In this document: positions 2,882-48,724 of the stretch, piece after piece | Position numbering within the stretch: position 1 is the stretch's first letter | Layout: each line of letters starts with the position of its first letter | Assembly (NCBI RefSeq): GCF_002355375.1 | Contig: NZ_AP017312.1 | Span: 1,691,001-1,755,000 of the forward strand | DNA from: Aneurinibacillus soli | GTDB taxonomy: Bacteria > Bacillota > Bacilli > Aneurinibacillales > Aneurinibacillaceae | DNA length: 64,000 nt | Reading direction: 5' to 3' | Notes under the pieces: generated by a model | Told to the model about the DNA's origin: nothing | What the model saw: only the letters and a program-made list of their open reading frames with translations | Database searches by the model: none | Position numbers and translations under genes: made by a program

Positions 2882-2885
2882 GCTA

Positions 2886-2902: not shown

Positions 2903-2941
2903 GTACGGCAGATACGCACTAGCAGTATGGGTGGTGAAACG

Positions 2942-4536: not shown

Positions 4537-5548
4537 TACACAGCATGCAGTGGGAATTCTTTCGACTGGTCGTTATTTGCCAGACAAGGTAATTACAAAC
4601 GCAGATTTGGAAAAAATGGTAGATACATCAGATGAGTGGATCGTAACACGTACCGGCATTCGTGAGCGTCGGATGGCAGCAGAAGGAGAGACAACGTCTG
4701 ATCTGGCAGTCAAAGCGGCGCAAAATGCACTGAATAAAGCTGGTGTTTCCGCAGAGCAGCTCGATCTGATTATTATTGCAACAGCTACGCCGGATATGTT
4801 TTTCCCATCGACAGCCTGTCTGGTGCAAGAGCGAATCGGCGCGAAGAAAGCGGCGGCGTTCGATCTGTCGGCAGCGTGTTCGGGCTTTTTGTATGGCACA
4901 TCGGTTGCCGCCCAGTTTATTAAGAATGGAATGTACCGCTATGCGCTCGTCATTGGCGTTGAGACGCTTTCAAAAATTGTCGACTGGACGGACCGGAATA
5001 CATGCGTGCTGTTCGGGGACGGAGCGGGTGCGGTTGTGCTCGGGCCGGTAGAAGAGGGCATGGGTTTTCTATCATTTGAGCTGGGCGCGGACGGAAGCGG
5101 CGCGGAACTGTTGAAACTTGAGGCGGGAGGGTCCCGCAAGCCGGTCGCGACAGTAGAGCCGGGCAGCCGTGATAATTATGTGCATATGGCGGGCAGCGAG
5201 GTGTTCAAGTTCGCTGTTCGTGCGATGAACACAGCTTCAGACAATGCGGTAGCCAAAGCCGGGATTACGAAAGAGCAAGTAGACTTCCTTGTTCCGCATC
5301 AGGCTAACCTGCGCATTATCGATTCAGCGGTAAAACGTCTGGGGCTTCGGGATGATAAAGTAGTTATTAATCTTAATAAGTATGGCAATATGTCTTCTGC
5401 TTCCATTCCGGTAGCGCTTGATGAAGCGGTAAGTGAGGGACGCATCAAAGAAGGTGACACGCTTGTGCTTGTCGGCTTCGGTGGCGGACTTACATGGGGT
5501 GCATCGGTGATGAAATGGAGCACGGCTGAGAAAAAAGAGGTGGAATAA
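4529..5548 (+). CDS. fabH: Beta-ketoacyl-ACP synthase III
   Basis: 339 residues from ATG 4529, preceded by AGCGGGGAT; the in-frame ATG at 4499 would lie inside plsX. Catalytic triad is visible: Cys in DLSAACSGF, His in VPHQANLRI and Asn in NKYGNMSSAS. FabH condenses acetyl- or branched acyl-CoA with malonyl-ACP and so sets the chain start. The fabD start codon follows its stop directly. Confidence 0.96.
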   Translation: MHSTQHAVGILSTGRYLPDKVITNADLEKMVDTSDEWIVTRTGIRERRMAAEGETTSDLAVKAAQNALNKAGVSAEQLDLIIIATATPDMFFPSTACLVQERIGAKKAAAFDLSAACSGFLYGTSVAAQFIKNGMYRYALVIGVETLSKIVDWTDRNTCVLFGDGAGAVVLGPVEEGMGFLSFELGADGSGAELLKLEAGGSRKPVATVEPGSRDNYVHMAGSEVFKFAVRAMNTASDNAVAKAGITKEQVDFLVPHQANLRIIDSAVKRLGLRDDKVVINLNKYGNMSSASIPVALDEAVSEGRIKEGDTLVLVGFGGGLTWGASVMKWSTAEKKEVE

Positions 5549-6508
5549 ATGAGCAAAACCGCATTCTTATTCCCAGGACAGGGATCGCAGTTTGTCGGCA
5601 TGGGAGCTGACTTTTACGAAACAGAAGCATCGGCTAAGGTAGTATTCGATGCCGCAGATGAAGCACTTGGATTCTCACTTTCCGAGCTTTGCTTTAACGG
5701 ACCAGAAGATGAATTGCGCTTAACAGCGAATACGCAGCCAGCGATTTTGACAGCAAGCATTGCGGTACTCCGCGTATTAAATGAGAAGTGTAACATTCGT
5801 CCGGATTTTACCGCCGGACATAGCCTGGGAGAATATTCGGCACTCGTAGCGGCTGATGCGCTTGTGTTTGAAGACGCTGTCCAGATCGTTCGGGCACGTG
5901 GACAGTACATGGAAGAAGCAGTACCGGCCGGACAAGGTGCAATGGCTGCTATTATGGGCATGGAGCGAGATGCACTTGATGCAGTATGCCAGGAAGTAAC
6001 AACAGCCGGATATCCTGTACAGCTAGCGAATCTGAATTCGCCGGGACAGATCGTCATCTCTGGCAGTGCGGAAGGGGTAGCGCGTGCTAGCGAAGCTGCC
6101 AAGGCTGCCGGTGCGAAGCGAGCGATTCCGCTCAATGTAAGCGGGCCATTCCATTCGATGTTGATGAAGCCTGCTGCAGAGAAGCTTGAAGGTAAGCTTG
6201 CGGATTATGCGGTGAACGATGCGTACATTCCGGTTGTGGCCAACGTATCTGCACAGTCCGTACGGGAAGCCGATCATATTCGCCATGCGCTTATTGAGCA
6301 GGTAGCATCGCCTGTGCTATGGGAAGATACGGTGCGCTATTTGCTTGACCAAGGCGTGGACCGCTTTATTGAGATCGGACCAGGCACGGTATTGACCGGA
6401 CTTGTGAAAAAAGTAGACCGTAGTGTGCAAACGCTGTCCATTCAGGATGCGGCAACACTCGAAAAGGCGCTTGCCGTGCTGGCGGAAGCGGAACAGGGGG
6501 AGAACTAG
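5549..6508 (+). CDS. fabD: Malonyl-CoA:ACP transacylase
   Basis: 319 residues. The active-site serine is in the motif [10 protein letters not shown] and the early QPAI element is present (NTQPAIL). FabD loads malonyl groups on ACP. It starts directly after the fabH stop and ends one base before the fabG start codon, so this is a tightly packed operon. Confidence 0.96.
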
Positions 6509-6509
6509 A

Positions 6510-7250
6510 ATGCTGAATGGAAAAGTGGCGCTTGTTACAGGTGGTTCACGTGGCATTGGCCGTGCGATTGCCCTTACGCTCGCAGAAGCCGGAGCGGATG
6601 TAGCGATCAATTATGCAGGCAATGAGGCGGCTGCGCGTGAGACAGCTGATGCAGTAACGGCACTCGGGCGCAAAGCGATCATGATTAAGGCAGACGTGGC
6701 AAATGCCACAGAAGTAGACGCGATGGTGAAACAGACGATTGATGAGCTTGGTAGCGTTGATATTCTCGTCAATAATGCAGGCATTACCCGCGACAACTTG
6801 CTGATGCGTATGAAAGAAGAAGAATTTGACGATGTGATCGCGACCAATCTTAAAGGCGTGTTCAACTGTATCAAAGCGGTAACACGTCCGATGATGAAAG
6901 CACGCAGTGGCCGTATCATCAATATTTCTTCTGTTGTCGGTGTTATGGGGAATCCGGGCCAGGCGAATTACGTTGCAGCGAAAGCGGGCGTGATCGGCAT
7001 GACCAAATCCGTTGCACGTGAGCTGGCAAGTCGTGGCATTACCGTAAATGCGGTAGCACCAGGATTTATTGATACCGATATGACAGCGGTGCTTGGGGAA
7101 GATACGAAAGATACGCTTCTGACACAGATTCCACTCGCCCGTCTTGGCAAGCCGGAAGACGTGGCACATGTCGTCAAATTCGTTGCTTCAGACGAAGCTT
7201 CCTACATGACGGGCCAAGTATTTCATGTTGATGGTGGCATGTACATGTAA
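6510..7250 (+). CDS. fabG: 3-oxoacyl-ACP reductase
   Basis: 246 residues from ATG 6510, preceded by GGGGGAG; an upstream in-frame ATG at 6423 is inside fabD. It is a short-chain dehydrogenase with NADP-binding [14 protein letters not shown] and the Tyr-x3-Lys catalytic pair in NYVAAKAG. It reduces beta-ketoacyl-ACP in each elongation round. Confidence 0.96.
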
Positions 7251-7299
7251 GGCATCGTATAATAGACGAATGACATTTCATTGAGAGGAGGTGAAGCAA

Positions 7300-7533
7300 A
7301 TGGCAGACACATTAGAACGCGTAAAGAAAATCATCGTAGATCGCCTCGGTGTTGACGAATCTGAAATCAAAGAAGAAGCTTCGTTCAAAGATGATCTTGG
7401 TGCGGATTCTCTGGACGTTGTAGAACTCGTTATGGAACTTGAAGACGAATTCGATCTTGAAATTTCTGACGAAGACGCAGAGAAAATCGCAACTGTGGGT
7501 GATGTAATCAAATACATACAGTCCCACAAGTAA
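7300..7533 (+). CDS. acpP: Acyl carrier protein
   Basis: 77 residues from ATG 7300 with the ribosome site GAGAGGAGGTG; a GTG at 7291 lies within that site. The DSL serine ([10 protein letters not shown]) receives the 4'-phosphopantetheine arm. The protein is small and very acidic, as usual. It sits between fabG and fabF as in Bacillus and E. coli. Confidence 0.97.
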
Positions 7534-7556
7534 TATGAGAGTAACTGTTTTAGGAA

Positions 7557-7586
7557 AAAGTCCCGTATGTTTTATGCGGGACTTTC
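7557..7586 (+). terminator. Hairpin between acpP and fabF
   Basis: AAAGTCCCGTAT pairs with ATGCGGGACTTT around a short loop, but the tail (TTTCTCC) is only partly uridine. It probably works as a partial terminator or processing site that raises acpP mRNA relative to fabF. Confidence 0.5.
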
Positions 7587-7616
7587 TCCACATCTAGCTA
7601 TATTTCGAGGTGAACT

Positions 7617-8858
7617 ATGGAAAATCGCGTAGTAGTAACAGGTGTCGGTGCGGTCACACCGCTCGGCAATGACGCCAAAACATTCTGGGAAGCCCTGCTG
7701 GCAGGTAAATCCGGAGTGGGCATGATTACGGCGTTTGACACGACAGAGTATTCGGCGAAAATTGCAGCCGAAGTAAAAGATTTTAACCCGGAAGACTATA
7801 TTGACCGCAAAGACGTGAAGCGTACAGACCGTTTTGTACAGTTTGCGGTAGCGGCAGCTAAGATGGCCGTTGAAGATGCAGGTCTTGAAATTAACGAAGA
7901 AAATTCGGAGCGCATTGGTGTCTATATTGGTTCGGGCATTGGTGGCCTTGGCACGATGGAAGATCAGATCAAAATTTTGATGGAGAAAGGACCGCGCCGT
8001 ATTAGCCCGTTCTTCGTTCCAATGATGATCGCAAACATGGCATCTGGCCAGGCGTCGATTGCACTCGGTGCCAAGGGACCGAACAGTGCGGCGATTACAG
8101 CTTGTGCAAGTGCGACGCACTCGATTGGAGATGCATTCAAAATCATTCAGCGTGGTCACGCTGATGCCATGGTTACAGGCGGTTCGGAAGCATCCATTCG
8201 CCCGGTAGCAGTAGCGGGATTCAGCAATGCCAAGGCACTGTCTACACGTAATGACGAGCCTACGCGTGCAAGCCGACCGTTTGAGAAGGACCGCGATGGC
8301 TTTGTTATGGGCGAGGGTTCTGGCATTATCATTCTTGAATCGCTTGAACATGCGAAGAAACGTGGTGCGACGATTCTTGCAGAAGTCGTTGGCTATGGCA
8401 TGAGCGCGGATGCGTATCATGTGACACAACCGGCTCCGGGTGGAGAAGGTGCAGCACGGGCGATGAATATGGCGATTGCGGATGCAAAAGTGAAGCCGGA
8501 AGATATTAGCTACATTAATGCACACGGAACGTCTACAGGATACAACGACAAGTTTGAAACGATGGCGATTAAAAAATCGCTCGGCGATCATGCATACAAC
8601 GTAGCAATCAGTTCTACGAAGTCGATGACGGGTCACTTGCTCGGTGCAGCAGGCGGAATCGAGGCAATCGCTTCTGTACTTGCATTGCGCGATCAGATCG
8701 TGCCGCCGACGATCAACTATGAAACGCCGGACCCGGAATGTGATCTTGATTATGTGCCGAATGAAGCGAGAAAAATGGATGTAAACGTAGTAATGTCCAA
8801 CTCACTCGGTTTTGGTGGCCATAATGCAACCCTCGTTTTCAAAAAGTTTGTCGAGTAA
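7617..8858 (+). CDS. fabF: Beta-ketoacyl-ACP synthase II
   Basis: 413 residues. Catalytic cysteine in [14 protein letters not shown] and the two histidines in [11 protein letters not shown] and [11 protein letters not shown] are present. It elongates acyl-ACP and shapes membrane fluidity. It is the last fab gene of the cluster; rnc begins 6 bases later and is probably co-transcribed. Confidence 0.96.
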
Positions 8859-8864
8859 GGTGCG

Positions 8865-9572
8865 GTGGTGAGAGCGGTGGACTTTGCACGTTTCCAGAAT
8901 GAAATTGGTGTCCAATTCAAAAATGAAAAACTGCTCCGGCAAGCTTTTACACATTCCTCATATGTAAACGAGCACCGGGGCAAGCCGTTTCAGGATAATG
9001 AGCGGCTTGAATTTCTCGGTGATGCGGTGTTAGAGCTGACGATTTCGCAGTTTTTGTACCATCATTTTCCGAAAATGGCGGAAGGTGAGTTAACTAAATT
9101 ACGGGCTGCTGTCGTATGCGAACCGTCGCTTGTCATGTTTGCTAATCAGCTTCGCTTTGGCGATCTGATTTTGCTTGGCAAGGGTGAGGAGCTAACAGGC
9201 GGACGATTCCGCCCCGCGCTTCTTGCTGATGTGTTCGAAGCCTTCATCGGTGCACTGTATCTCGATCAGGGCATGGACGCCGTATCCCGTTTCCTGGAGA
9301 CATACGTGTATCCGCGTATTAATCGCGGTGAATTTATGCGCGTAACCGACTACAAAAGCCAACTGCAGGAATTCGTACAGCGTGACGGTCTTGGTGAGAT
9401 TCAGTACGCGATCGTTCAGGAACGGGGTCCGGCGCACAGCCGAGAGTTCGTATCTGAAGTCACACTGAATGGCAATGTGCTCGGTCAAGGAAAGGGACGA
9501 TCCAAGAAGGAAGCAGAGCAGCATGCAGCTTCGATGGCGATGAAAGAGCTGGCTGTCAAAAGACAGGCGTGA
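8865..9572 (+). CDS. rnc: Ribonuclease III
   Basis: 235 residues with a GTG start (a second GTG follows at once). The RNase III signature [14 protein letters not shown] (metal-binding Glu/Asp) and a C-terminal double-stranded-RNA-binding domain ([11 protein letters not shown]...[13 protein letters not shown]) are clear. It cuts double-stranded rRNA precursors and antisense pairs. It overlaps the next gene by four bases. Confidence 0.95.
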
Positions 9573-10627
9573 AGCGGCACGTTAACATCGCGCTGTTCGT
9601 TCCTCATCAGGGCTGCCCGAAAGATTGTGTGTTTTGCAATCAGGCACGCATTACCGGGCAGAAGCGGGAGCGTCAGCTGACAGAAGAAGATGTGCGGCAG
9701 TCGATTGAAACACAGCTAGCTACCATTCGTTCGGATCAGACGGTGGAGATTGCATTTTTTGGCGGCAGTTTTACAGGGTTGCCGCGCGGATATCAGACGA
9801 TGCTTCTCAGTATCGCTCATGAATTCGTGGCAGCAGGTAAGGTATCCGGTATTCGCCTGTCCACGCGTCCGGATTATATTGCGCCGCATATTATGGATTT
9901 CTTGTTATCGTATGGCGTGACGTCTATCGAGCTTGGCTGTCAGTCGCTTGACGATGAGGTGCTGGCCCGGGCTAAACGCGGGCATACGGCAGCCCATGTC
10001 GAGCGTGCGGTTGCGATCATTCGTCAGTATCCAACTGTGCAGCTTGGCTTACAGCTTCTGCCGGGTCTTCCGGGAGATACGCGTGCGATTAGTGTGCGTA
10101 CGGCACAGGCGGCTGCCATGCTCCGTCCAGACTTTATGCGGATTTATCCGGCGCTCGTTATTGCGGGTACGGAGCTTGAAGGGATGTACCGTAGCGGAGA
10201 ATATGTGCCGCTGACCGTAGACGAAGCGGTACAGTGGACAGCCGAAGTATGGCTTCCGTTACTGAAAGCGGGCATTCCGGTCATTCGGATGGGGCTTCAC
10301 TCTTCGGATGATTTACGCCAGGCAGGAACTGTGCTTGCCGGTCCTCTCCATCCTTCGTTTCGCCAACTGGTGGAAACGGAATTATTCAGCCGCTTGCTGA
10401 AGCGGATGATGGAGGCGATTGTTCCGGACACACAGGCTTGCCTGAATGTGCGCATTCATCCGGCAGATGAGACAGCAGTGCGGGGTCCTAAGGGAATGGT
10501 ATGGCGGACATTTGCGCAGCAGATGCGGGATGAATCGAAGCTCGTATTGGATCGGGACCACCCTCGCTATACGGTGAGTTGGGAGAGCTCGTCTACAGTC
10601 GGTACACTCTCGTTTACAGATTTGTAG
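9569..10627 (+). CDS. Radical SAM protein, Elp3-like
   Basis: 352 residues, GTG start coupled to the rnc stop (GTGA). The iron-sulfur motif CPKDCVFC (Cx3Cx2C) follows VPHQG near the N-terminus, and AFFGGSFTG matches the SAM-binding GGE-type region. It resembles the radical SAM part of Elp3-like proteins but has no obvious acetyltransferase domain. A gene of this family between rnc and smc is typical of Brevibacillus-like and clostridial genomes. The substrate is unknown. Confidence 0.85.
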
Positions 10628-24792: not shown

Positions 24793-25869
24793 ATGTTCGC
24801 CAGTGTAAAAAGTGCGGTTGTATACGGGGTGGAAGGAAAATGTATTGAGGTAGAAGCAGATATTACAAATGGTCTGCCGCATTTTGATATTAGTGGACTG
24901 GCGGCGTCTTCGGTACGAGAAGCACGGGAGCGGGTAAAGGCGGCGATCAAAAACAGCGGATTTACCTTTCCATTGCAGCGAATTACGGTTAACCTTGCGC
25001 CTGCTGATATGCGGAAAGCAGGCTCCATGCTTGATTGTGCCATCGCGGTAGCGATCCTGCTTGCAAGCGGGCAGATTGAAGTTCGCAATCGTCTTGCGGA
25101 CTGGCTGTTTGTTGGAGAGTTGTCGCTAGAAGGACGTTTGCGCTCGGTTCCGGGTCTTTTGCCTATGCTTTTAGATGCGCGTAAACAGAATGGATCTGGG
25201 GCTGTTGTACCATTAGAGACAGGGGAGGAAGTCGGGCGTGTTCGGCTTCCGCTTTTGCGGGCGGCCACCTTGCGGGAATGTGTAGATCTTTTTGCCTGTC
25301 CGGATGAAGAGTTGGCACAAATCAGTAAACTGGATAGCTTACGTGTAGGCCAGATGGAATCTCAAATTTCTCATCTTTGTTTTTCAGAGGTAAGGGGGCA
25401 GCGGCACGTCAAGCGGGCGATGGAAGTGGCAGCTGCCGGACGGCATCATTTGTGTATGGTTGGTCCACCGGGAACAGGGAAAACCATGATGGCCTATCGA
25501 TTCCCCACGATTTTGCCGTTGCTTGATGAAGAAGAAGAGCTGGAAGTGGATGCGATATATAGTGCCTGTGGCTTGTTAGAAGAAAGATTTAAGCAGCGAG
25601 GTCAACCCCCATTCCGTGCTCCTCATACTTCGATTACGCCAGCTGGAATAGCGGGAGGAGGGACCTGGCCTAAGCCAGGGGAGATGAGTTTGGCTCATCT
25701 TGGCGTGCTGTTTCTTGATGAATGGGCAGAGTTTTCTCGGCCTGTACTGGAATCGATGCGCCAGCCACTTGAAGATGGGAAGATTGTATTAATTCGAAGC
25801 GGTCGAAAGCTCACCCTGCCCTCACGCTTTCTTTTACTGTCCGCATTTAATCCGTGCCCATGTGGATAG
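24793..25869 (+). pseudogene. comM: ComM/YifB-type Mg-chelatase-like helicase, truncated by prophage
   Basis: 358 codons remain of a protein normally near 510. Start at ATG 24793 (AAGGAAG before it). Lon-like N-terminal domain (residues 1-190), Walker [10 protein letters not shown], Walker [13 protein letters not shown]. The frame runs through SAFNPCPCG, the conserved zinc-like motif of the family, and then hits TAG directly. Homologous C-terminal sequence is absent; it should lie on the far side of the prophage. ComM is a branch-migration helicase that widens heteroduplex in natural transformation, so the lysogen probably lacks a full ComM. Confidence 0.9.
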
Positions 25870-27445
25870 GAGTTTGCATAAAAAGATACCTGATTGCAAC
25901 CTCAGCTTTGTCGCGTCCTTCTGGGTTTTTGATCGTATGAACCTTTACTTCTTTTACGAGGGAATGGACGATTCTAAACTTTGCTTCGAAATCTATATCC
26001 TGGCTTACCTTCGTCTGTAACTCGTTCAATACAGATTCTGCATTTTGCAACTGAGTTTCTACAACCTGCTCATTCTCGATCAGGAAGGATAGGTTCTTTT
26101 CTTCTTGTTGCAGTTGCTTTGTTTCCTTTTCGATTTTCCCCAGTTGAATCTCCACATCTATACTGGAAATAAATTTCTTCCGGAACAAATCTAAAATCGA
26201 CTGCTTTTCCGTTTCCTTTTCCTTCAGCGCCTTACGCAGAAGATTGCGCTGCTGCTGAAGCCTTTCTCGGTTATCTTGTTGTTTCTCCACATCCGGTTTC
26301 AGTTCCTCTAAGATATTTCCGGGATTGGCGGCGAAGTTCAGAATGTCATTCCACACCATGGAATCTAACCATTCACGTGGGACATTTTTGGAAGAGCATC
26401 GCCCTCCGTTTCTTGTGTGATGCGTTGTTTTCCCTAGACATACATAATAGTAAAGCGTTTTTCCTTTTTGGCCGTAAGAGTGCAAGTAATAACTTCTGCC
26501 ACACTCTCCACACTTCACTAATCCTTTGAGTATATTATTCAGCGAGCCGACTTGAGACTCAATACGGTGGCGTTTCAAGGCTCTCTGAGCCTCTTCCCAT
26601 TGTTCTTCTGAGATAACGGCCGGTACAGTACGTTCTATTAGCTCACGCTGGCGAGAGGCACGTTTCCCGTAGAAGTGAATCCCTTTGTATACCTCATTCT
26701 TTAGAATCCCTAGAATCCGACTTTGTTGCCAGATACCTGATGTTTTTTCTCGTCTCTTTCCATCACCTCGTTTTACTTTCCGTTTATCTTTCGTGTATGC
26801 CGTAGGAATTCCGAGGGCATCCAGATGCTCACCTATTTTGATGGAGCCGTAGTCTTGGTTGGTTATGAGGTCAAAGATCAGGCGAATGACACCAGCCTCC
26901 GAGAGATCAAGTCCAGGTAAAGGATCTTCGTTTATTTCCAAGTACCCATCTTCATTGACGCGGTAGCCGTAAGGTACAATGCCACCAATCCATTTTCCGT
27001 CCCGTGCTGCACGGTTAGCACCTTGCCAGAGACGATCTAAGATAGTGGAGCGCTCAAGGTCGGCTACACCGGCCAGAATGGTCAGCAGGAAGCGTCCAGA
27101 AGGGTCAGAGGTATCGAATGGTTCTGTCATGGATTTGATTTTGATACCGTAGCCCTCCAGCTCGTGTACGGCGTTCAGGATGACGCGGGCAGCTCGGCCA
27201 AGCCTGTCCAAGCGGTAGATCAGCAGCAGATCAAACTTTTTGTCTTTGCCATCTTGGATGAGCTGCTTTCCAGCTTCGCGTTGTTCTAGTGGAATTGTAC
27301 CGGATATACCATCGTCTTTGTACCACTCGGTGATTTCGAGCTTGTGCAGGTCACAATATTTTGTAGCAAATTCAATTTGGTTTTCGATTGTACCGCGCTC
27401 GACTTGTTCTTCGGTGGAAACGCGGATGTAGACGGCGACCCTCAT
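25847..27445 (-). CDS. Large serine integrase
   Basis: 532 residues, ATG start with AGGAGG. N-terminal resolvase domain with catalytic Ser10 in YIRVSTEEQ and the arginines of RLDRLGRAA; recombinase domain (about 160-260); zinc ribbon ([11 protein letters not shown] ... CSSKNV); then a long coiled coil (about 380-470). This is the phage integrase type that needs no host factor and uses a separate directionality factor for excision. Its last ~6 codons and stop lie in DNA shared with comM, so the reading frame crosses attL. Confidence 0.95.
25850..25868. other. attL: comM/prophage junction
   Basis: comM homology stops at the NPCPCG codons (about 25849-25866) and prophage sequence follows. The large serine integrase next to it makes a short core (usually 2-12 bp of identity) likely here. 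The exact crossover cannot be placed without attR, which lies outside the window. Confidence 0.75.
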
Positions 27446-41396: not shown

Positions 41397-41765
41397 ATGC
41401 GAGAGGTTAAGTTTCGTGGAAAGAGCATTGATGAAGAAAAAGAAGGTTGGTTTTACGGAGATTATTGTTCTGTACCAAGCCCAAACATCTTATTTGAAAA
41501 TTCAAATAAAGAAATAGATTGCGAGCCTGTTATTCCGGAAACAGTTGGACAATACACAGGTCTACGTGATCGGAATGGTCGGAAGATTTATGAGGGGGAT
41601 ATTGTTCGTTGGCCCGGATCAGGAGACAAAGTGTACGTAAGAGTCGTCACTTTTGAAAAATACACATTCCATGTAGGAAATATATTAGACGGTCTGTGTG
41701 ACTACCGTGACTTCGTGGTCATCGGCAACATCTACGATAACCAGGAGCTGCTGGAAGGTAACTAA
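41397..41765 (+). CDS. YopX-family protein
   Basis: 122 residues. REVKFRGKSID at the start and the family core VGQYTGLRDRNGRKIYEGDIV. YopX proteins occur in many Firmicutes phages; role unknown. AAAGGAGA site. Confidence 0.85.
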   Translation: MREVKFRGKSIDEEKEGWFYGDYCSVPSPNILFENSNKEIDCEPVIPETVGQYTGLRDRNGRKIYEGDIVRWPGSGDKVYVRVVTFEKYTFHVGNILDGLCDYRDFVVIGNIYDNQELLEGN

Positions 41766-41902
41766 CGGTTGCTTAGCATCGTGGCTATGTTGCGTAATGC
41801 TTGAATTAAATCACCAAATTGAAACGATATATTCCCAATGCTAATAGCGATGATAATCAAGGATGTGATTTTTACTATTTTATAAAGTTTATCTATCTCC
41901 AT
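41762..41902 (-). CDS. Micro-membrane protein, leftward
   Basis: 46 residues on the minus strand with AAAAGGAG and ATG. One hydrophobic segment (about residues 9-26, TSLIIIAISIGNISF region). It touches the end of the yopX gene tail to tail. Function unknown; size and topology recall small phage toxins or holin-like peptides, but nothing specific is seen. Confidence 0.5.
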   Translation of the reverse strand: MEIDKLYKIVKITSLIIIAISIGNISFQFGDLIQALRNIATMLSNR

Positions 41903-41931
41903 CTAAAAGAACTCCTTTTCATATAAAAATG

Positions 41932-41961
41932 CCCCTCGCCAGTCTGCCAACTGTTGAGGGG
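41932..41961 (-). terminator. Nested hairpin, minus-strand terminator-like
   Basis: CCCCTC and GAGGGG enclose an inner CAGT/ACTG stem; the minus-strand side runs into TTTTT. It lies between the micro-protein start and the next rightward gene. Confidence 0.5.
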
Positions 41962-42014
41962 ATTCCCTGTTCTTGACTCACAAGAATATTTTACCATGAG
42001 CAGGGGGAGTAGTC

Positions 42015-42677
42015 ATGAATAATCAGTATTTCTTGGAGAAAGTTTGCGCGAAGTGTCCAGGTTCACAGTGGGGTAAGTCAAGCATGTGCCGCATTCATGA
42101 CATGCATATCGGTAAGGTGCAGGGATGCCCACAGTGGGAGGAGCACCAGGCGGCGCAGTTGAAGGATCATGACGGGCAGGTAGCGTTCTTGGATCTAGAG
42201 CCAGCAATTGAGGCTGTGCAACGGGTAGAGCAAGACTTACGCGACTATCGTTGGATGGCTGAGAAAATCGATGCGATTCAAGCTTATGAGGATAGGAACA
42301 AAGAGAAGTCCCGTGAAGTTTGGGAGGGCATGCTTGGAGCTGGTACAGCTCAGTATGGAATTGAGTCGTCGCTACCAAAGGCGCAAGGTGTAAACTCGGA
42401 TGTAACGTATAGAGAGGCGCAAAAGCTCCTACGGAACTGGGAGCGTATGAAACGATATGAGCGCAAGGTAAAGAAGCTGGAAGAGGCTGTGGCGGCGTTA
42501 CGTGACGAGCGTGAGCGTACAGTAGCCGAGGGAATACTAGACGGTATGAAGATGTATGAGATTGCTCAGCAGCTTGATGTGAGTCGGACAACAGTTGATA
42601 CGATTCGTCGGTCAATGGTGCGAAATCTGGCTTGGATTATGTATGAAGAGGAAATGAGGGAAGGCCTGTCAGCGTAG
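42015..42677 (+). CDS. Late-gene transcription regulator, sigma-like HTH
   Basis: 220 residues, GGGGGAG site. N-terminal cysteine-rich part (CAKCPGSQW ... CRIHDMH ... CPQW) may bind zinc, then a coiled coil, then a C-terminal sigma-70 region-4-like HTH (ILDGMKMYEIAQQLDVSRTTVDTIRR). The type and position, last of the early block and just before the late genes, match ArpU/RinA-like activators. Followed by a terminator. Confidence 0.7.
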   Translation: MNNQYFLEKVCAKCPGSQWGKSSMCRIHDMHIGKVQGCPQWEEHQAAQLKDHDGQVAFLDLEPAIEAVQRVEQDLRDYRWMAEKIDAIQAYEDRNKEKSREVWEGMLGAGTAQYGIESSLPKAQGVNSDVTYREAQKLLRNWERMKRYERKVKKLEEAVAALRDERERTVAEGILDGMKMYEIAQQLDVSRTTVDTIRRSMVRNLAWIMYEEEMREGLSA

Positions 42678-42689
42678 ACAGGCTTTTTG
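42664..42689 (+). terminator. Terminator of the early operon
   Basis: GCCTGTC-AGCGTA-GACAGGC then TTTTT; it overlaps the stop codon of the regulator gene. Confidence 0.9.
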
Positions 42690-42789
42690 CTTTACATTCT
42701 GGACATTGCTTTACATGTCAGCATCTACTTTGCACTTTGTACGTTTTTTGCGAGTCAAAAGCGCAGCGTGGTATGCTGGATGCAGGAAA

Positions 42790-42832
42790 GATAAGCGAAG
42801 GGGCCGTTCCGAGGGGAGCGATCTTTTGTTTT
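42790..42832 (+). repeat. Terminator-like direct repeat, left copy
   Basis: Starts GATAAGCGAAGGGGCCGTTC and ends in a T-rich tail. Closely similar to the copy at 44047. The two copies flank the cohesin-dockerin gene. Confidence 0.6.
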
Positions 42833-42861
42833 TGGAAGATATTCATCTCTAAAAATATAAA
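42832..42861 (+). promoter_or_regulatory. Probable promoter of the cohesin-dockerin gene
   Basis: TTGGAA, 18-bp spacer, TATAAA (42856-42861), just after the left repeat and 75 bp before the start codon. It would allow expression in the lysogen. Confidence 0.4.
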
Positions 42862-42935
42862 GTATTACCAAATATATAAAAATAATGTTATTCTATATAT
42901 TGGGAGTAAGAATCTATTTTTATTGGGGGATGCAT

Positions 42936-44024
42936 ATGAAAAGGGTAAAGGTTTTGCTGTTTTTAACTTCTTTAATGCTAGTGATGACCGCATTTGTATC
43001 TAGCGTAAGTGCTGCGACGATTGGTCAACAGTTGTTAAACCCAGAAAGTGGATGGAAAAGGTTTCAAGATAATGATCCTAATATTAAATATGGAGGAAGT
43101 GGTTGGTTTAGAAATGATAGTATTGATATGATAACTCCTACTTCAGGGGATCATACAGTAAGATTTAATTTCAGTGGTGATAAAATCAGAATACTTGCAT
43201 ATAGTTGGTCTAACAGAGCTAAACATAAGATTTCTATCGATGGAGGAACTCCTGTAGAATACGCAAATAACCTAACTGGTGGTAGTATGGTAGTAGATGC
43301 TCTTGCTTATGAAAAAACAGGATTGTCTAAAGGGGTACATACGGTAGAAATTACTAGGGGTTCTACAGGTATTATGACAATTTCCGCTATCGATATTGAC
43401 CAAAACAGTGAGCTGTCAAAATATGATCCAACAGTTTTGCAAAAAGATATTGCTATGGATATCCAAGCCCCACAAACAACTGTAGCTGGTGGAACAACGT
43501 TTACCACATACGCTATCGTTAAAAATGCTAAAGACCTGTACGCTGAAGATGTAAAAGTTAAGTACGATACAAATCTGTTCGAATTCGTAAAGGCAGAACC
43601 AGCAAGCACTGGCTTACATATTTACTATGAAAAACAAGAAGCACCGGGAGACTTGCGATTTATCGTAGCAAGTAATGGTGAAAAGTACGGAGTGAACGGA
43701 GAAGCACAACTACTGAAGCTGACGTTCAAAGCGAAGAATACACCAGGAAAAGGCAAGATTGACATTGCTACCGGTCTAGTAGCAGACTCGAAAGGTACCG
43801 AGGTAGAAGCAACAGTTGATGGTGAGGAGATTACAGTAACAGGTGGATTTGATGCTGACGTAAACGGAGACGGCAAGTACAGCCTGGGTGACGTAGCTAT
43901 TGCCGGATTTCACCACTCCAAAGACAAAGCGCAGTGGACAAACCCGAAATCCGACGTCGATAAAAACGATAAAGTAGAAGATGGTGATCTGGCGCTGATC
44001 GTACAGAAAATCTTGAATCCGTAA
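42936..44024 (+). CDS. Secreted cohesin plus dockerin protein (prophage cargo)
   Basis: 362 residues from ATG 42936 (GGGGGA before it). Signal peptide (MKRVKVLLFL...SSVSAA, cut near residue 29). Residues about 30-155: beta-sandwich carbohydrate-binding-like domain (GWKRFQDNDPNIKYGGSGW, DGGTPVEY, GVHTVEITRG). Residues about 170-300: cohesin-type domain (YAIVKNAKDLYAEDVKVKYD). C-terminus: dockerin with two calcium loops (DVNGDGKYSLGD and DVDKNDKVEDGD). Not needed for virion building, so a lysogenic conversion gene. Partner and substrate are unknown. Confidence 0.8.
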   Translation: MKRVKVLLFLTSLMLVMTAFVSSVSAATIGQQLLNPESGWKRFQDNDPNIKYGGSGWFRNDSIDMITPTSGDHTVRFNFSGDKIRILAYSWSNRAKHKISIDGGTPVEYANNLTGGSMVVDALAYEKTGLSKGVHTVEITRGSTGIMTISAIDIDQNSELSKYDPTVLQKDIAMDIQAPQTTVAGGTTFTTYAIVKNAKDLYAEDVKVKYDTNLFEFVKAEPASTGLHIYYEKQEAPGDLRFIVASNGEKYGVNGEAQLLKLTFKAKNTPGKGKIDIATGLVADSKGTEVEATVDGEEITVTGGFDADVNGDGKYSLGDVAIAGFHHSKDKAQWTNPKSDVDKNDKVEDGDLALIVQKILNP

Positions 44025-44046
44025 TTAGATAATAAGAGTATCAGGA

Positions 44047-44088
44047 GATAAGAGAAGGGCTGTTCCAAGGGAGCGGCCTTTCTTTAAT
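44047..44088 (+). terminator. Terminator, right copy of the direct repeat
   Basis: GGCTGTTCC-AAG-GGAGCGGCC (two GU pairs) with T-rich tail. Begins GATAAGAGAAGGG, like the left copy at 42790. Confidence 0.8.
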
Positions 44089-44170
44089 TGATAACTTTGG
44101 GAGTGGTATAGTTTTGGGCGATATACACGATAGTGTGAAATGACGAATTTTATATTTTGTTATTTAGATA

Positions 44171-44205
44171 AAACTCACGTAAGGCTAATTACCCTACGTG
44201 AGTAA
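44171..44205 (-). terminator. Terminator of the cysteine-rich gene
   Basis: ACTCACGTA (44173-44181) and TACGTGAGT (44195-44203), perfect 9-bp stem; the minus-strand tail is TTTTATC. Confidence 0.85.
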
Positions 44206-44225
44206 AGGTAAGGGTCACAAATAAT

Positions 44226-44480
44226 CTAACGTCGTCCTGGACCATGATTACATCGTATGACAGGACATGTCCCAACCCTTCCTGATGCACTTGCGATATC
44301 TGAGTTAGGATCAGGCAACGACATACAGGGTTCCGTTTCTATATGACACACAGACGTGTCTGGACCTAAAGGGACTCGATACCCTCCACCATTACATCCT
44401 CCATTATCATATCGATACGGATACCTAGCATCTAATTCATCGCCAGCCCTGACTTCAAGAAGAGGACGGTTACAACTCAT
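44226..44480 (-). CDS. Cysteine- and glycine-rich small protein
   Basis: 84 residues from ATG 44480 with AAGGAGG. Six cysteines (SC, GC, VC, PC, TC, RC), many Gly/Pro/Asp, and a basic GPGRR end. No signal peptide or membrane helix. It has its own terminator and is opposite in direction to the late genes, so it is likely expressed in the lysogen. It could be disulfide- or metal-bound, or a modified peptide precursor, but no maturation genes are near. Function unknown. Confidence 0.6.
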   Translation of the reverse strand: MSCNRPLLEVRAGDELDARYPYRYDNGGCNGGGYRVPLGPDTSVCHIETEPCMSLPDPNSDIASASGRVGTCPVIRCNHGPGRR

Positions 44481-44563
44481 GAGTAGTACCTCCTTATTTT
44501 CGTAGTGCAATAATATTGTTCCACAAAGCGTAAGGATCAATCAGTAAATATATGTAAACCATT

Positions 44564-44590
44564 AAAGCGCCGCTTGGGTGCTTTTTCTTT
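44564..44590 (-). terminator. Terminator between the two leftward cargo genes
   Basis: AAAGCGCC pairs with GGTGCTTT around a short loop with A/T-rich tails on both sides, so it may act in either direction. A second small hairpin (AACCC/GGGTT) directly abuts it. Confidence 0.6.
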
Positions 44591-44618
44591 TGCAAACAAA
44601 ACCCCGCATCTCGTAGGG

Positions 44619-44810
44619 TTAAATACTTTTCTTCATGCCGCACTCTCTGCATTCTCTAGTGAAAATCGTATCCTTAACAGAACTTTTGAAATGGGCGTTA
44701 CCACAATTATCACAGCGCCCACTGACAGTATCAGGGTACTCTTTGTAGTCGTAAACGATGGTTGTGTCATAACCGTTGTATTCTTTGTTGGCTTCGGTCA
44801 AGGTGATCAC
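44619..44810 (-). CDS. Small zinc-ribbon protein, leftward
   Basis: 63 residues. Cysteine pairs CDNCGNAHF and CRECGMKKS form a zinc ribbon at the C-terminal half, which is a TFIIS/topoisomerase-like arrangement. The start is a GTG at 44810 or a TTG at 44801. Function unknown. Confidence 0.6.
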   Translation of the reverse strand: MITLTEANKEYNGYDTTIVYDYKEYPDTVSGRCDNCGNAHFKSSVKDTIFTRECRECGMKKSI

Positions 44811-44977
44811 CCTTATGTTGGATTTAACTTTTATATCATAGCAGATAAACAGTAGAGTATGGCACTGTATTCAGCGTTGCCTGGTAGTAGGTGATCGTGA
44901 AGAAAGTAATTCATAACGCTACAGTTGCAGGATAATACTTCTTATTGTCGAATTATGATGGCTAGGGAGGATGAACT

Positions 44978-45724
44978 ATGTCTAATAAACTAGATGATTG
45001 TAAACAACTTACGATGCCACGAAGAGATTTTATTTATTTGTGTATTATTTTGGTAATCATATTGATATCAGTCTGTTCTTTTTTCTTCGGTGGTTCTACG
45101 CGAGCTGGAGAGAGCTTAAATTTCGGGGCGACCCTCGTGTCAATTATTTTAGCCGTACTTGCGATTGTTATAACCCTAATTGATATAGGTGGACAAAAAA
45201 ATAATGTCCTGGACTTAAAAGAATCTGTAGAAAAAATCAACAAAGCATTGTCGCAGTCACAATTATTAATAGAAAGTACTAAGGAACAAGTGTTTGAAAT
45301 CAATTCTTTAAAGGAGCAACTACTTGGAAGGATAGAAGAGAGCATAAAATTTCAGGAAGAAATTAAAGAAATGATTCGAGGTTCAGAAGGTGAAGAAATT
45401 GATAAGGAAGCGATATTAAAAGCGCTTGAAGAACGAGAGAAACAAAAACAGGAGAATGTTTTTATAGAAGCTTCTAACATGTATCAAAATAACAATGCTA
45501 TAACAGAAATGATTGAAAGTGTTATAAAAGAAAGTTATGCAATAGGGCAAGAATTTACATTCAAAGATTTACGAGAAAAACTGGATGAAAAATATATTAA
45601 ATTATCTTCTTCAGTATTAGTGTTTACGATGAAAAAATTAGAAAAAATGGGTGTTTTATCTCGTATTACCTCTGCGAATTCAGGAGCAGTAAGGTTTCAA
45701 AGGAACCCGAGTTTATTTGACTGA
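44978..45724 (+). CDS. Membrane coiled-coil protein with winged-helix-like C-terminus
   Basis: 248 residues; TAGGGAGGAT site. Two membrane helices (about 19-38 and 48-68), a long coiled coil (about 75-160), and a C-terminal domain (about 175-240) that looks like a winged helix (EFTFKDLREKLDEKYIKLSSSVLVFTMKKLEKMGVLSRI). AT-rich, between cargo genes and the late operon and closed by its own terminator, so likely a cargo gene. A membrane sensor, exclusion or defence role is possible; no family recognised. Confidence 0.65.
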   Translation: MSNKLDDCKQLTMPRRDFIYLCIILVIILISVCSFFFGGSTRAGESLNFGATLVSIILAVLAIVITLIDIGGQKNNVLDLKESVEKINKALSQSQLLIESTKEQVFEINSLKEQLLGRIEESIKFQEEIKEMIRGSEGEEIDKEAILKALEEREKQKQENVFIEASNMYQNNNAITEMIESVIKESYAIGQEFTFKDLREKLDEKYIKLSSSVLVFTMKKLEKMGVLSRITSANSGAVRFQRNPSLFD

Positions 45725-45731
45725 TATAACC

Positions 45732-45757
45732 GCGTCCATGTTGGACGCTTTTTCTTT
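45732..45757 (+). terminator. Terminator before the late operon
   Basis: GCGTCC-ATGTT-GGACGC followed by TTTTT. Confidence 0.9.
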
Positions 45758-45788
45758 TACCCTAAAACGGAGGTGGGTGATGATGTAG

Positions 45789-46148
45789 ATGGCACGTAAC
45801 CATGAACAAGACCGATACTATGACAAGCACAAACGAAACAGGGAAGCTAAGCGATTCTATGATAGTGCTGCTTGGCGTAAGTGCAGGGACTATGTATTAA
45901 AGCGCGACAACTACCTGTGTCAGCCATGTTTCAGGCACGGCATGAAGCTCAAGCCAGCTGACACAGTACACCACATCGAACACTTCGATGAAGCACCAGA
46001 GCGTGCGCTTGATCCAGACAACCTGGAAAGTGTATGCAATGCCTGTCATAACAAGTTGCATCCAGAGAAGGGACAGAGTAAGGATAAACCAAAGAAGAGG
46101 CGTAAGGTGAAAGTGATACGATCGCAAGCGAATCAAGAAGTGTGGTGA
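45789..46148 (+). CDS. HNH endonuclease (packaging)
   Basis: 119 residues. HNH fold with zinc: YLCQPCFRHG, VHHIEHFDEAP, NLESVCNACHNKLH. In cos phages of HK97 type an HNH protein is encoded just before terminase and works with it in cos cleavage. GGAGGTGGGTG upstream; start of the late operon. Confidence 0.92.
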   Translation: MARNHEQDRYYDKHKRNREAKRFYDSAAWRKCRDYVLKRDNYLCQPCFRHGMKLKPADTVHHIEHFDEAPERALDPDNLESVCNACHNKLHPEKGQSKDKPKKRRKVKVIRSQANQEVW

Positions 46149-46194
46149 TGGTCGCATGAAGTAATATAGAATTTATAAAAAATAGCAAAGGGTG

Positions 46195-46524
46195 ATGAAG
46201 ACTTTGGAAGCACAACATACAATGGTTAATTGCGATGATTGCAAGCAAGACTTTTCGCTAACTTCTATCGAACAGAAGAAGCTTGATAATGGAGTAGAGC
46301 GAAATTACTTTATCTGTCCACATTGCCAAAGGCAGTATACAGCTTTCTATACCAATCAGAAGGTAAGACGTAACCAGGCCAAGATTACCGCATTAGGACG
46401 AGAGGTACAGCATGCCACTACGTTAAACAAATCTAATCGCTTGCGTAAGCAGATAGAAGAATTGTCGGAGGATAATAAGCGTGAGATGGATCGTTTAAAA
46501 CGAGAGTTTGATAGCGAAGAGTAA
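46195..46524 (+). CDS. Zinc-finger coiled-coil protein before terminase
   Basis: 109 residues from ATG 46195 (GTG 46192 and TTG 46204 are alternatives). CDDCKQDF and CPHCQRQY make an N-terminal zinc knuckle, followed by a charged coiled coil (about 60-108). Commonly located between HNH and small terminase in Firmicutes phages; role unknown. Confidence 0.65.
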   Translation: MKTLEAQHTMVNCDDCKQDFSLTSIEQKKLDNGVERNYFICPHCQRQYTAFYTNQKVRRNQAKITALGREVQHATTLNKSNRLRKQIEELSEDNKREMDRLKREFDSEE

Positions 46525-46527
46525 GTA

Positions 46528-46630
46528 AGCCCCCCTACCCTGCAAGTTGGAAAGGGATATGGCTACAGACCGGCGTGGCCCTTCGCTTGTACCACGCATA
46601 AAATTTTAGATTAAGGGGGGTGCCCTGGAA
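46528..46630. other. Candidate cos region
   Basis: Non-coding 120-bp gap before the small terminase with a C6 run (46530-46535), a G6 run (46615-46620) and a GCGTGG/CCACGC inverted repeat (46573-46578 and 46592-46597). Position between HNH and terS and GC-rich symmetric runs fit a cos site. The cut positions cannot be read from sequence. Confidence 0.45.
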
Positions 46631-46644
46631 GGGAGTGTTGTGAT

Positions 46645-46968
46645 ATGGCGGTACCCACTGCGAAGAAGATTCGGGAGTATCTCGGTGATAACTACCAAGA
46701 ATCAGACGAGGAGTTAATTCAGCTCTATATCGAGACACACAAATATTACCGGAGACTTAAAAAAGAGGTGGAGAAAACCCCGTTGATGCTTGAACATACT
46801 AACAAATCCGGGGCTACGAACACCGTTAAAAATCCGCTGGCAATCGAGGTTACAAAGACCGTTCAAACACTCAATAATCTTCTGAAATCACTTGGACTCA
46901 CACCAGCTCAACGTAAGAAAGTAGGGGTGGCTGGGGACGACGATGACGACGATTTCGATAACTTCTAG
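46645..46968 (+). CDS. Terminase small subunit, P27 family
   Basis: 107 residues. Helical; LYIETHKYYRRLKKEVE and NPLAIEVTKTVQTLNNLLKSLGLTPAQRKK are the P27-type core, with an acidic end (DDDDDDFDNF). It recognises phage DNA for packaging. Overlaps the large subunit by 26 bases. Confidence 0.9.
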   Translation: MAVPTAKKIREYLGDNYQESDEELIQLYIETHKYYRRLKKEVEKTPLMLEHTNKSGATNTVKNPLAIEVTKTVQTLNNLLKSLGLTPAQRKKVGVAGDDDDDDFDNF

Positions 46969-48724
46969 TCCGAAAGAGATTGAAAAATGGTATAGAAAAT
47001 GGCACGAAAAACAGGTTAAAAAGCGTCATATTCTCAATGATTTCTCACCAAAATTGCTTACAACTTGGTATACAGAGCGTGTGATCAACGGGGAAATCGT
47101 GGCTGGTAAAAAGGTTGTACAAGCTTGTCAGCGGCACTTAAACGATTTGGAGCGACAAGGCACAGAAGACTTTCCGTACATCTTTGATGAGGATCGCGCA
47201 CACCGTCCGATCAAATTCATTGAGCAATACTGTCGACCATCAAAAGGTGATTATCAAAAACTTGTCCTGCAACCGTGGCAGCACTTCACAATCGGATCGT
47301 TGTATGGCTGGGTGCATAAAGATACTGGAGTCCGTCGCTTCCGTGAGGGGCTTATTTTCATTGGTCGGAAGAACGGGAAGACAACAAAGATTAGTGGTCT
47401 GTCGTTGTACTCCTTATCGAAAGACAACGAGAGAGGCGCAAAGGTGTATGTACTTGCCAACACTAAGCAGCAGGCGGGGGAGCTTTTCAATGAGAGTCGG
47501 GCAATGGTCCAGAAATCTCCGTCTCTGCGCAAGAGAGTGCGCGAGAATCAGAAAGGGATATATTTTGACAAGACCTTCAGCTCCATAGAAGCCCGTGCAT
47601 CTGATAGCGAGAAGTTGGATGGCCTGAATACTCATCTTGGCATCTTTGATGAGATCCATGAATTCAAGGATTTTAAACTGATCAATGTCATCAAACGTTC
47701 GTGGTCGGCTCGTAAGCAACCAATGGTCGTATACATTACAACAGCAGGATACCAGCTTGACGGCCCACTGATAGAGTATTACGAGATTGCTGCGGATGTT
47801 CTGAACGGGGCATTGGAACAAGAGCGCAAATTCTACTTTATGGCCGAGCTCGACGATGAAAATGAGATCGAGAATCCGGCCATGTGGATTAAAGCTAATC
47901 CGAACGTCGGGGTTACGCTCAACCTCCCGGAACTGGTGCAGGACTTCAATACGGATCGTCATGTGCCGCAAGAGTACAATGACTGGGTGACGAAGCAATT
48001 CAATCTCTTTGTAGACAATAGTGAGCAGTCATTCCTGTCGTTTGAAGTGCTTAAGCGGAATGACAGCGTGATTGATGAGAAACTGCTTGAAGGAAAAGGA
48101 TGCATCGGCTCGTTTGACCTTTCTGACAGTGAAGATTTTACGAGTGCATGCCTTGAATTCCCTCTTGATGATGGGCGAGTATTTGTGCTATCTCATACGT
48201 GGATACCGGAAGCTAAAGTGAAGAAGGAAAATGAGAATATCCCGTATCGCGTATATGAGAAAGAGGGGCTTTTAACCATTATTCCGGGAGAATACGTGAA
48301 AAAAGAGTACATTTTCGACTGGTTCGTAGAAAAATCTGAGCGTTTTCCAATCGAAAATATTATGTATGATCCGGCGAAAGCGTTCGGTCTTGTCGAGTCA
48401 TTGAAGGCACATGGATTCGAATGCGAAGTGGTGCGACAGGGATTTCTTACGCTTGGTCCGGCATTGGACAATGCCAAAGAATTGTTCTTGGATGGGAAAG
48501 TAGTATTCAACAATAATCGGCTATTTCGTTGGTACATCAACAACGTGAAGTTGGTTGAGGACCGTAATCGCAATAAAATGCCTACCAAACAAGGTCGCTA
48601 CCGTAAAATTGACGGTTTTGCGGCCTTTTTGAATGCGCACACCGTGGTTATGAAGAAACTGGCCGTTCCAACTGCGAGTGGCAACGTTGACTTTGTATCG
48701 ATCAAAGACCTGCTAAGGGGGTGA
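46943..48724 (+). CDS. Terminase large subunit
   Basis: 593 residues. ATPase with Walker A-like GRKNGKTT (about residue 140) and Walker B LGIFDEIHEF; nuclease domain with acidic residues in GSFDLSDSEDF and near ENIMYDPAKAF. This is the Terminase_1 type used by HK97-like cos phages. It cuts cos and pumps DNA into the head. Confidence 0.95.
   Translation: MTTISITSSPKEIEKWYRKWHEKQVKKRHILNDFSPKLLTTWYTERVINGEIVAGKKVVQACQRHLNDLERQGTEDFPYIFDEDRAHRPIKFIEQYCRPSKGDYQKLVLQPWQHFTIGSLYGWVHKDTGVRRFREGLIFIGRKNGKTTKISGLSLYSLSKDNERGAKVYVLANTKQQAGELFNESRAMVQKSPSLRKRVRENQKGIYFDKTFSSIEARASDSEKLDGLNTHLGIFDEIHEFKDFKLINVIKRSWSARKQPMVVYITTAGYQLDGPLIEYYEIAADVLNGALEQERKFYFMAELDDENEIENPAMWIKANPNVGVTLNLPELVQDFNTDRHVPQEYNDWVTKQFNLFVDNSEQSFLSFEVLKRNDSVIDEKLLEGKGCIGSFDLSDSEDFTSACLEFPLDDGRVFVLSHTWIPEAKVKKENENIPYRVYEKEGLLTIIPGEYVKKEYIFDWFVEKSERFPIENIMYDPAKAFGLVESLKAHGFECEVVRQGFLTLGPALDNAKELFLDGKVVFNNNRLFRWYINNVKLVEDRNRNKMPTKQGRYRKIDGFAAFLNAHTVVMKKLAVPTASGNVDFVSIKDLLRG

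Follow-up and report, generated by a model that had tools for sequence, protein, structure and literature searches.

The window is a stretch of 64,000 nucleotides (G000:C1:1691001-1755000) in a genome of one contig of 4.12 Mb. It contains a gene for an integrase with invertase similarity (25847-27445, phrog_95) and genes for a repressor-like regulator, replication initiation, and a DnaC-like loader. From 42015 onward, the order is an ArpU-like regulator, the gene described here, two further ORFs, HNH, TerS, and TerL, followed by portal, protease, major head protein, and tape measure. This phage gene set, extending from integrase to tape measure, indicates that the region is a prophage and that the gene lies between the late regulator and the terminase. 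The gene, at 42936-44024 (+), encodes a 362-aa protein with a cohesin and a dockerin (Coh-Doc), with its ATG start at 42936, GGGGGA upstream, and its stop codon at 44022-44024. The longer listed ORF starting at 42885 was discarded because no N-terminal signal peptide is obtained from that start. No tRNA was found in the window, and an Rfam scan of 41500-46500 gave one match, far under the gathering score. The features of the locus are as follows.

42015..42677 (+), ArpU-like late transcription regulator, directly upstream of the gene (phrog_1058, 8e-26; phrog_36 'transcriptional regulator', 6.4e-7)
42690..42746 (+), three direct repeats (CTTTACAT, CTTTACAT, CTTTGCAC) starting at 42690, 42709, and 42728 with an exact 19-bp period (read in the sequence); probable activator sites
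42769..42777 (+), putative extended -10 promoter TGGTATGCT of the element in its long form (conserved in copies)
42788..42832 (+), putative hairpin terminator half of the upstream element (fold z -2.5; terminator scan 42805-42820)
42936..44024 (+), predicted secreted head-cohesin-dockerin protein, 362 aa (ORF, Pfam, PHROG)
42936..43013 (+), predicted signal peptide, residues 1-26 (read in the sequence; two crude rules agree)
43014..43436 (+), head, residues 27-167, a phrog_10059/CE2-N/CBM35-like beta-sandwich
43464..43811 (+), cohesin, residues 177-292 (Pfam PF00963; 2vo8 fold match)
43851..44021 (+), dockerin, residues 306-362 (Pfam, class profiles, sequence)
43857-43892 and 43953-43988 (+), Ca2+ loops of the dockerin (sequence)
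44046..44085 (+), putative downstream hairpin terminator, a hairpin-only copy of the element (fold z -5.8; model R1, E 6.8e-8 at 44006-44088)
45732..45758 (+), further putative terminator hairpin (45732-45748 and a T-run), directly before the late-gene RBS (fold)
45789..48724 (+), late block: HNH at 45789, zinc-ribbon-like ORF at 46192, TerS at 46645, TerL at 46943 (Pfam, PHROG)

The earlier note had described a signal peptide, a carbohydrate-binding-like domain, a cohesin, and a dockerin joined in one chain in a prophage, and Pfam, PHROG, fold comparisons, and the sequence itself bore this out. The signal peptide was called by reading the sequence and by crude rules, not by SignalP. The cohesin scored 35 bits against PF00963, above the cut-off of 24.1. 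The dockerin scored 19.2 bits against PF00404 (Dockerin_1) as a single match, under the cut-off of 22.9, and 24.8 bits with both loops summed; both loops, DVNGDGKYSLGD and DVDKNDKVEDGD, read as the full D-x-N/D-x-D/N-xxx-S/E-xx-D pattern. The linker between cohesin and dockerin is at most about a dozen residues (292 to 306 by Pfam and 303 to 307 by class profiles). The model of the Coh-Doc half had a pLDDT of 91.2 and a pTM of 0.71 and, being of a single chain, is silent on docking between chains; its top solved match was 2vo8, a C. perfringens cohesin (rmsd 1.4, TM 0.90 by target). A single-sequence search of the PDB with the protein gave weak matches, the best at E 0.16. Pfam identified one cohesin and no enzyme domain in the 362-aa protein, and whole-protein searches of phages, viral_contigs, and genome_contigs gave no match.

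By its place between conserved phage modules, the gene reads as prophage cargo (a moron). It is absent at the matching site in the relatives L059, L048, L061, L047, and L050. As for signals of its own, it is followed by the putative terminator at 44046-44085, and a sigma-70 scan of 42833-42935 detected no promoter-like site. Behind it, a hairpin at 44173-44203 and a 104-aa Cys- and Pro-containing ORF (44226-44540, -) were seen; this ORF had no Pfam or PHROG match. The 3' half of the hairpin at 45732-45758, together with the RBS, recurs in ten other loci and lies before TerS in L061. The late-gene RBS stretch is fused to the element described below in places (L042 11840, L043 12839, and L046 12645).

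Relatives of the head and of the cohesin-dockerin half

The head matched phrog_10059 with an E value of 6.5e-35 (residues 6-175 on profile positions 15-195 of 345). The match comprised the head half alone; a full-length match to phrog_10059 including the C-terminal half was not obtained. The head also matched phrog_15881 'tail protein' (E 2e-4) and scored 21.8 bits against Pfam CE2_N, under the cut-off of 27.9. In the model of the head (pLDDT 91.7, pTM 0.86), the closest solved folds were CE2 esterases (2waa, E 1.1e-5), with CBM35/36 modules lower. The closest viral model was a phage CE2-N protein (TM 0.88 by query), and the viral matches after it include minor tail and tail fiber proteins. 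The head family is thus one known from phage tail-type proteins and from secreted prophage proteins. The head would bind a glycan, probably one displayed at the surface of the host or of related bacteria.

A head of the same type is present in a 753-aa protein from another prophage-like region of the same genome, with 43% identity over residues 25-174 and 52% of aligned columns in a second alignment. Its gene comes third among the ORFs that follow a phrog_248 activator and a copy of the element. A search of phages with the head of the 753-aa protein gave no match.

The search of viral contigs for the head covered 77 loci from the best 80 of 94 relatives, several of them near-duplicates, and the counts that follow are not of independent events. 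The 77 loci contained 91 head frames, 37 of which carried a signal peptide by a crude rule; by the same rule, a secreted head frame was found in 27 of the 77 loci and two or more such frames in 7. None of these 77 loci combined a secreted head with a tail-type head inside a span of about 6 kb, and a homology search of the window phage's own tail genes found no recognizable head. These results therefore give no sign of a link between the secreted head and the tail of the same phage. Secreted twins of tail-type domains, at 27/77 viral loci among the best 80 of 94 relatives, are a wider pattern worth study.

Secreted prophage proteins of the phrog_10059 type share the signal peptide and the head with the window protein and often contain Big_2, but their C-terminus is other than Coh-Doc, with the exception of one in the viral contig L121. 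Their genes lie before terS (L121 and L142) or, by ORF reading, between tail-type and lysis-type genes (L118, L126, and L174). In L121, five secreted head proteins are encoded upstream of TerS and TerL (phrog_509 and phrog_3717), in an array spanning 1142-8157. The third of them, after one change of frame, contains Big_2, a cohesin (43.5 bits), and a dockerin-like end. Its Coh-Doc end covers positions 9-191 of the 192 in the Coh-Doc profile (E 1e-32); the loops of its dockerin-like end are more irregular than in the window protein, and Pfam lists no dockerin there.

At E 1e-8, 11 of the 398 genomes searched from the class contained relatives of the Coh-Doc half, a count that includes the host genome and G006, a genome from another species of the genus. 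The genome_contigs search gave at least 31 loci; among the matches listed, 29 were from Paenibacillus, and the others were one Thermoanaerobacterium MAG and one weak Archaeoglobus MAG. Two viral contigs carry a truncated cohesin end and a dockerin (L226 4209-4487 and L227 6001-6279; Pfam 29 bits), located, by reading of ORFs, between tail-type and holin-like genes.

G006 encodes the same Coh-Doc half at 88% nucleotide identity over 567 nt, and homology begins at the Coh-Doc boundary. There were 69 nucleotide differences over these 567 nt, yet amino acid identity was 94% over 188 aa, indicating that the change is mostly synonymous. The head of the G006 protein is a different one, F5/8 (Pfam 32 bits; phrog_17517 'tail protein', E 1.7e-29). 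Around the G006 gene, the following were found in the order of the window: 46 bp with the last DnaC-like codons (93%), the element (39/40 bp), and the late-gene leader (26/26 bp). The element is present upstream of the gene only. The view of the G006 gene as an ordinary chromosomal gene was dropped because of the collinear prophage relic pieces around it, and the locus appears to be a prophage relic that retained its cargo. Since the head has a relative in the 753-aa protein and is replaced in G006, a joining or an exchange of head and Coh-Doc between prophage-like islands is probable. In literature searches on cohesin-dockerin in prophages, moron cassettes, and prophage carbohydrate binding, the titles and abstract starts among the matches listed named no such protein or array.

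The putative promoter-hairpin element and its copies among cargo genes

The period-19 score of the repeats upstream of the gene was reached by 12 of 1,000 shuffles (window alone). A period of 19 or 38 was among the two best in six of nine promoters located behind the regulator, the others being L044, L045, and L046. The extended -10 motif at 42769..42777 is one of five on the + strand of the window. The long form of the element has an extended -10 (GTGTTATGCTGGA or GTGTTATGATGA) and the leader AGATAAGCGAAGGGG, and many copies also carry the hairpin. The earlier note had described related repeats on both sides of the gene, each a terminator. Repeats and hairpins were both recovered: 42789-42826 and 44046-44081 are 82% identical over 38 columns, and both hairpins were beyond shuffles. 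The two copies are, however, unequal, with promoter sequence in the upstream copy only and a hairpin alone downstream, and the description as a bare terminator gave way, for the upstream copy, to a putative promoter plus hairpin. The use of the element as promoter and terminator is predicted from sequence features.

At E 0.01, the element gave 63 matches in all seven genomes of the genus, and at E 0.001, 3 of the 8 genomes taken from elsewhere in the order also contained it. The profile used, R1, was built from 27 of 48 copies; RNAalifold on the element alignment A6 gave only 4 pairs and no compensatory change, so this covariance model is in effect a sequence profile. Hairpins were found in 20 of the 48 copies by a strict script rule, and 35 of the 48 had a z of -2 or lower against mononucleotide shuffles. 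The initial view of the 40-bp repeat as a two-copy curiosity was dropped when further copies were found in siblings, and a claim that several element loci are non-prophage places was cut back when L059 proved to be a close sibling prophage.

The ArpU-like regulator of the window has a copy right behind it, as do the regulator homologues in 8 of the 10 sibling loci that encode one; in L053 and L054, two fragments, the regulator homologue has no element right behind it. A hairpin (z -2 or lower) was present in five of these nine copies (the window, L061, L044, L045, and L048) and was not detected in L042, L046, L047, and L050. The early terminator is therefore not constant. In L047 and L050, promoter and leader run straight into the RBS of the next gene; the gene behind the L047 promoter had no PHROG match, which gave no support for its being TerS. 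TerS comes after one element in both L048 and L061, in the latter with two short opposite-strand genes in between. The available portion of a study of S. aureus phage Phi13 (PMC13123087) describes a late promoter, P23, that is activated by Ltr, lies between regulator and terminase genes, and has four direct repeats. The putative promoter in the window resembles such Ltr/RinA-type late promoters, as far as described there, in its place and in the direct repeats upstream; it differs in that a hairpin follows at once in 5/9 cases here and in that the promoter is copied between cargo genes.

We compared the locus with that of the nearest sibling, L059 in G004 (amino acid identities of 76% for HNH, 65% for TerL, and 67% for portal). 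L059 has no Coh-Doc gene and one element (9825-9919), and its late-gene leader (10167) is located 253 bp behind the matched hairpin. The same interval in the window is 2.9 kb and contains the Coh-Doc gene between two element copies, each of which matches the one element of L059 (at 92.5% over 40 bp and 78% over 54 bp). L059 also has another regulator type and, before the element, a secreted-looking 208-aa ORF on the opposite strand; it is therefore not a clean empty site. This ORF (9069-9695, -) occupies the slot of the Coh-Doc gene.

In the cargo arrays of another genome of the genus, G003, the element occurs in seven (L042), six (L043), three (L044), five (L045), and four (L046) copies, and small genes, several with signal peptides, lie between them. 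Ends of homology blocks (blocks of ≥250 bp and ≥80%) fell inside an element copy in 13 of 47 cases compared with 1.33 expected (p 5e-5, the floor of this test with 20,000 circular shifts), the other 34 lying elsewhere; the 47 clustered ends are partly dependent, each block counting in both loci. This count covered six loci (L042-L046 and L053) with hand-set array borders and left the window out. Signal peptides after the element numbered 6/29 versus 55/478 by a first rule (p 0.12) and 8/28 versus 26/478 by a second rule, which was written after the misses of the first and gave p values from 0.012 to 2e-4 over four thresholds, 2e-4 being at the best one. The first count took 48 of the 63 element matches, those in fetched loci. 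This enrichment depends on the rule and is suggestive only. A secreted-looking family of 288-307 aa (MKKVATAF...LTVDEIMAQ...) is repeated in the cargo arrays (L044 9824-11840, L045 10524, L046 10938, and L053 2272); the one member tested had no Pfam match.

The earlier note had suggested that the gene came as a cassette by recombination between terminators and had proposed a look at other cargo between the same repeats in sibling phages. The siblings did contain such cargo, with the element punctuating arrays of small genes. The cassette origin is supported by the single element and missing gene in L059, by the arrays, and by the breakpoints in element copies. Against it for this particular gene stand the upstream-only element in G006, the unequal window pair at 82% identity, and the other regulator type in L059.

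Cohesin-dockerin class and candidate docking partners

Known settings of cohesin-dockerin pairs are the cellulosomes and the glycosidase complexes of clostridia. The best structure matches of the window cohesin were 2vo8, 2jh2, and 2w1n, all of the C. perfringens class. A Coh-Doc profile that included the window protein matched 2w1n at 2.9e-12 in the cohesin and 2jnk/2ozn at 1.3e-8 in the dockerin.

The host was searched for other cohesins and dockerins, as the earlier note had proposed, and this search found an SLH-anchored double cohesin, a third cohesin, and one dockerin protein. The gene for the dockerin protein (535 aa) immediately precedes that for a 744-aa protein, in which two cohesins are combined with three SLH domains. 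The pair is located at L022 8280-12122 (G000:C1:1260279-1264121); the dockerin protein is secreted-looking, and the pair reads as a small non-cellulosomal scaffold. Profile searches found no such pair in six other genomes of the genus. The third cohesin lies in a 1749-aa protein, the end of which reads as SLH by eye.

The class test relied on a Coh-Doc profile made without the window, from 16 other sequences. The prophage protein scored 147 bits against it and the G006 protein 150, compared with 19.0 and 17.5 bits for the cohesins of the 744-aa host protein and 16.0 for the host dockerin; the third host cohesin did not match this profile. Separate module profiles, also without the window, gave 105 bits for the prophage cohesin and 35.5 for its dockerin versus 16.9-18.4 and 11.3 for those of the host. 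With the window contained in the Coh-Doc profile, the scores were 208 bits for the prophage protein versus 12-19 for the host cohesins and dockerin. Profile scores place the cohesin and dockerin in the C. perfringens/Paenibacillus class, apart from the S-layer cohesins and the dockerin of the host. In the G006 genome, no cohesin match beyond the Coh-Doc half and no other dockerin above the cut-off were found, and the other five genomes of the genus gave no cohesin match.

The earlier note had suggested that the protein could self-assemble or hook to host surface proteins. We favor the former, homotypic docking, over hooking onto host proteins because of the gap in class scores and because the Coh-Doc half is the sole cohesin found in G006; hooking is disfavored since the host cohesins are of another class, although the host SLH cohesins may also act as partners. 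In the available part of one report (PMC12997984), a C. perfringens GH31 protein likewise has cohesin and dockerin in one chain; its cohesin bound no dockerin protein in ELISA, and its pairing with its own dockerin was predicted by AlphaFold3. By analogy, the ELISA result would count against homotypic docking.

Proposed function and alternative explanations

Our leading explanation, held tentatively and at a little less than even chance, is that the gene is cargo and that module exchange produced the protein it encodes, a surface lectin that docks homotypically and depends on Ca2+ to do so. The moron product would be exported from the lysogen, and its N-terminal beta-sandwich head, of the phage tail-type kind, would recognize a glycan, most likely at the surface of the host or of related bacteria. 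Cohesin and dockerin would form a cognate pair, the dockerin of one molecule docking, with calcium, in the cohesin of the next; docking is placed between molecules because no more than about a dozen residues link the two domains. The result would be a multivalent head-to-tail lectin on the lysogen surface or in the matrix. The likely gain would be superinfection exclusion, with the lectin hiding surface glycans from other phages, or else adhesion. A tail-type head makes such masking attractive, and it would act against other phages since the tail of the window phage has no recognizable head; adhesion is equally possible. The upstream element would serve as a late promoter with an early terminator, and its copies, which separate cargo genes in sibling prophages, would serve as exchange sites for cargo segments.

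We consider it unlikely that the protein is instead a heterotypic adaptor, with its dockerin plugged into the SLH-anchored cohesin of the host and its cohesin taking host dockerins, so that a head is added to an existing scaffold. The host does encode the 535-aa dockerin protein beside the protein with two cohesins and three SLH domains, plus the third cohesin in the 1749-aa protein, but these modules are of another class, with at most 19 bits on the Coh-Doc profile. Moreover, G006 has a Coh-Doc protein without another cohesin match, and searches of the other five genomes of the genus gave no cohesin match. It is less likely still that cohesin and dockerin of the same chain close up as an inert stalk, leaving a plain monomeric secreted lectin. 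The two domains are adjacent in one chain and the pLDDT is high over both, yet a linker of no more than about a dozen residues probably cannot bring the dockerin to the usual face of the cohesin. We give a similarly small probability to a hitch-hiking module from host glycan-degrading secretomes that brings the phage no benefit, with Coh-Doc and head as remnants. Such an origin would fit the 29/31 named Coh-Doc relatives that are Paenibacillus loci among the matches listed, as well as the truncated Coh-Doc ends in L226 and L227 and the change of frame in the L121 protein. The intact 362-aa frame with full calcium loops and a predicted signal peptide argues against decay, as do the mostly synonymous change relative to G006 and the recurrence of head plus Coh-Doc in another prophage (L121).

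The role of the repeats in cargo exchange has an alternative of its own, namely that they are ordinary dispersed promoter-terminators of the genus, unrelated to such exchange. Copies in L029, L051, L052, L055, L056, L057, L058, L060, and L063 with no ORF resembling any protein encoded in the window would be expected in that case, as would the one-sided element in G006. We regard this as improbable in view of the copy behind the regulator in the window and in 8/10 siblings with a homologue, the clustering of breakpoints in copies, and the nearest sibling pair, with one copy and no gene versus two copies and the gene. Returning to the self-docking lectin, a broader form of this explanation is conceivable, if doubtful: prophages of the genus would keep cargo arrays on late promoter-terminator copies that provide punctuation, insulation, and a homologous joint for genes and domains; the cargo here would be a self-polymerizing lectin coating the lysogen, and the same design would have arisen in, or passed to, the L121 lineage. 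If the hairpins insulate, late transcription from the element's promoter would pass several terminators and must read through them, implying antitermination in the lytic phase.

With regard to known systems, the window cohesin and dockerin are similar by structure and profile to the cohesin (X82) and dockerin modules of C. perfringens glycosidases and toxins (NagJ, NagH, and NanJ). In contrast to those modules, the window protein has no enzyme domain, its head is of the phage tail type, and it is carried by a prophage. Secreted Paenibacillus proteins have the same C-terminal Coh-Doc tandem; these are mostly large proteins, whereas a small enzyme-free head is present here. With the cellulosome, the protein has in common the cohesin and dockerin domains and the predicted secretion, but there is no scaffoldin with repeated cohesins and no enzyme, the two hallmarks of that system, and the cohesin is of another class. 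A phage-borne Coh-Doc that lacks an enzyme and bears a tail-type head would amount to a natural self-assembling coat, and as such would offer a way to superinfection exclusion or adhesion that can be tested. For the old question of how phage genomes gain and lose morons, the element provides a concrete joint at the level of sequence, at which breakpoints can be counted. Another form of the element precedes the same 261-271-aa gene in three genomes (L029 10751, L043 6897, and L058 5399), and several copies of that form have GGCGTGA-type repeats in front with an 11-bp period.
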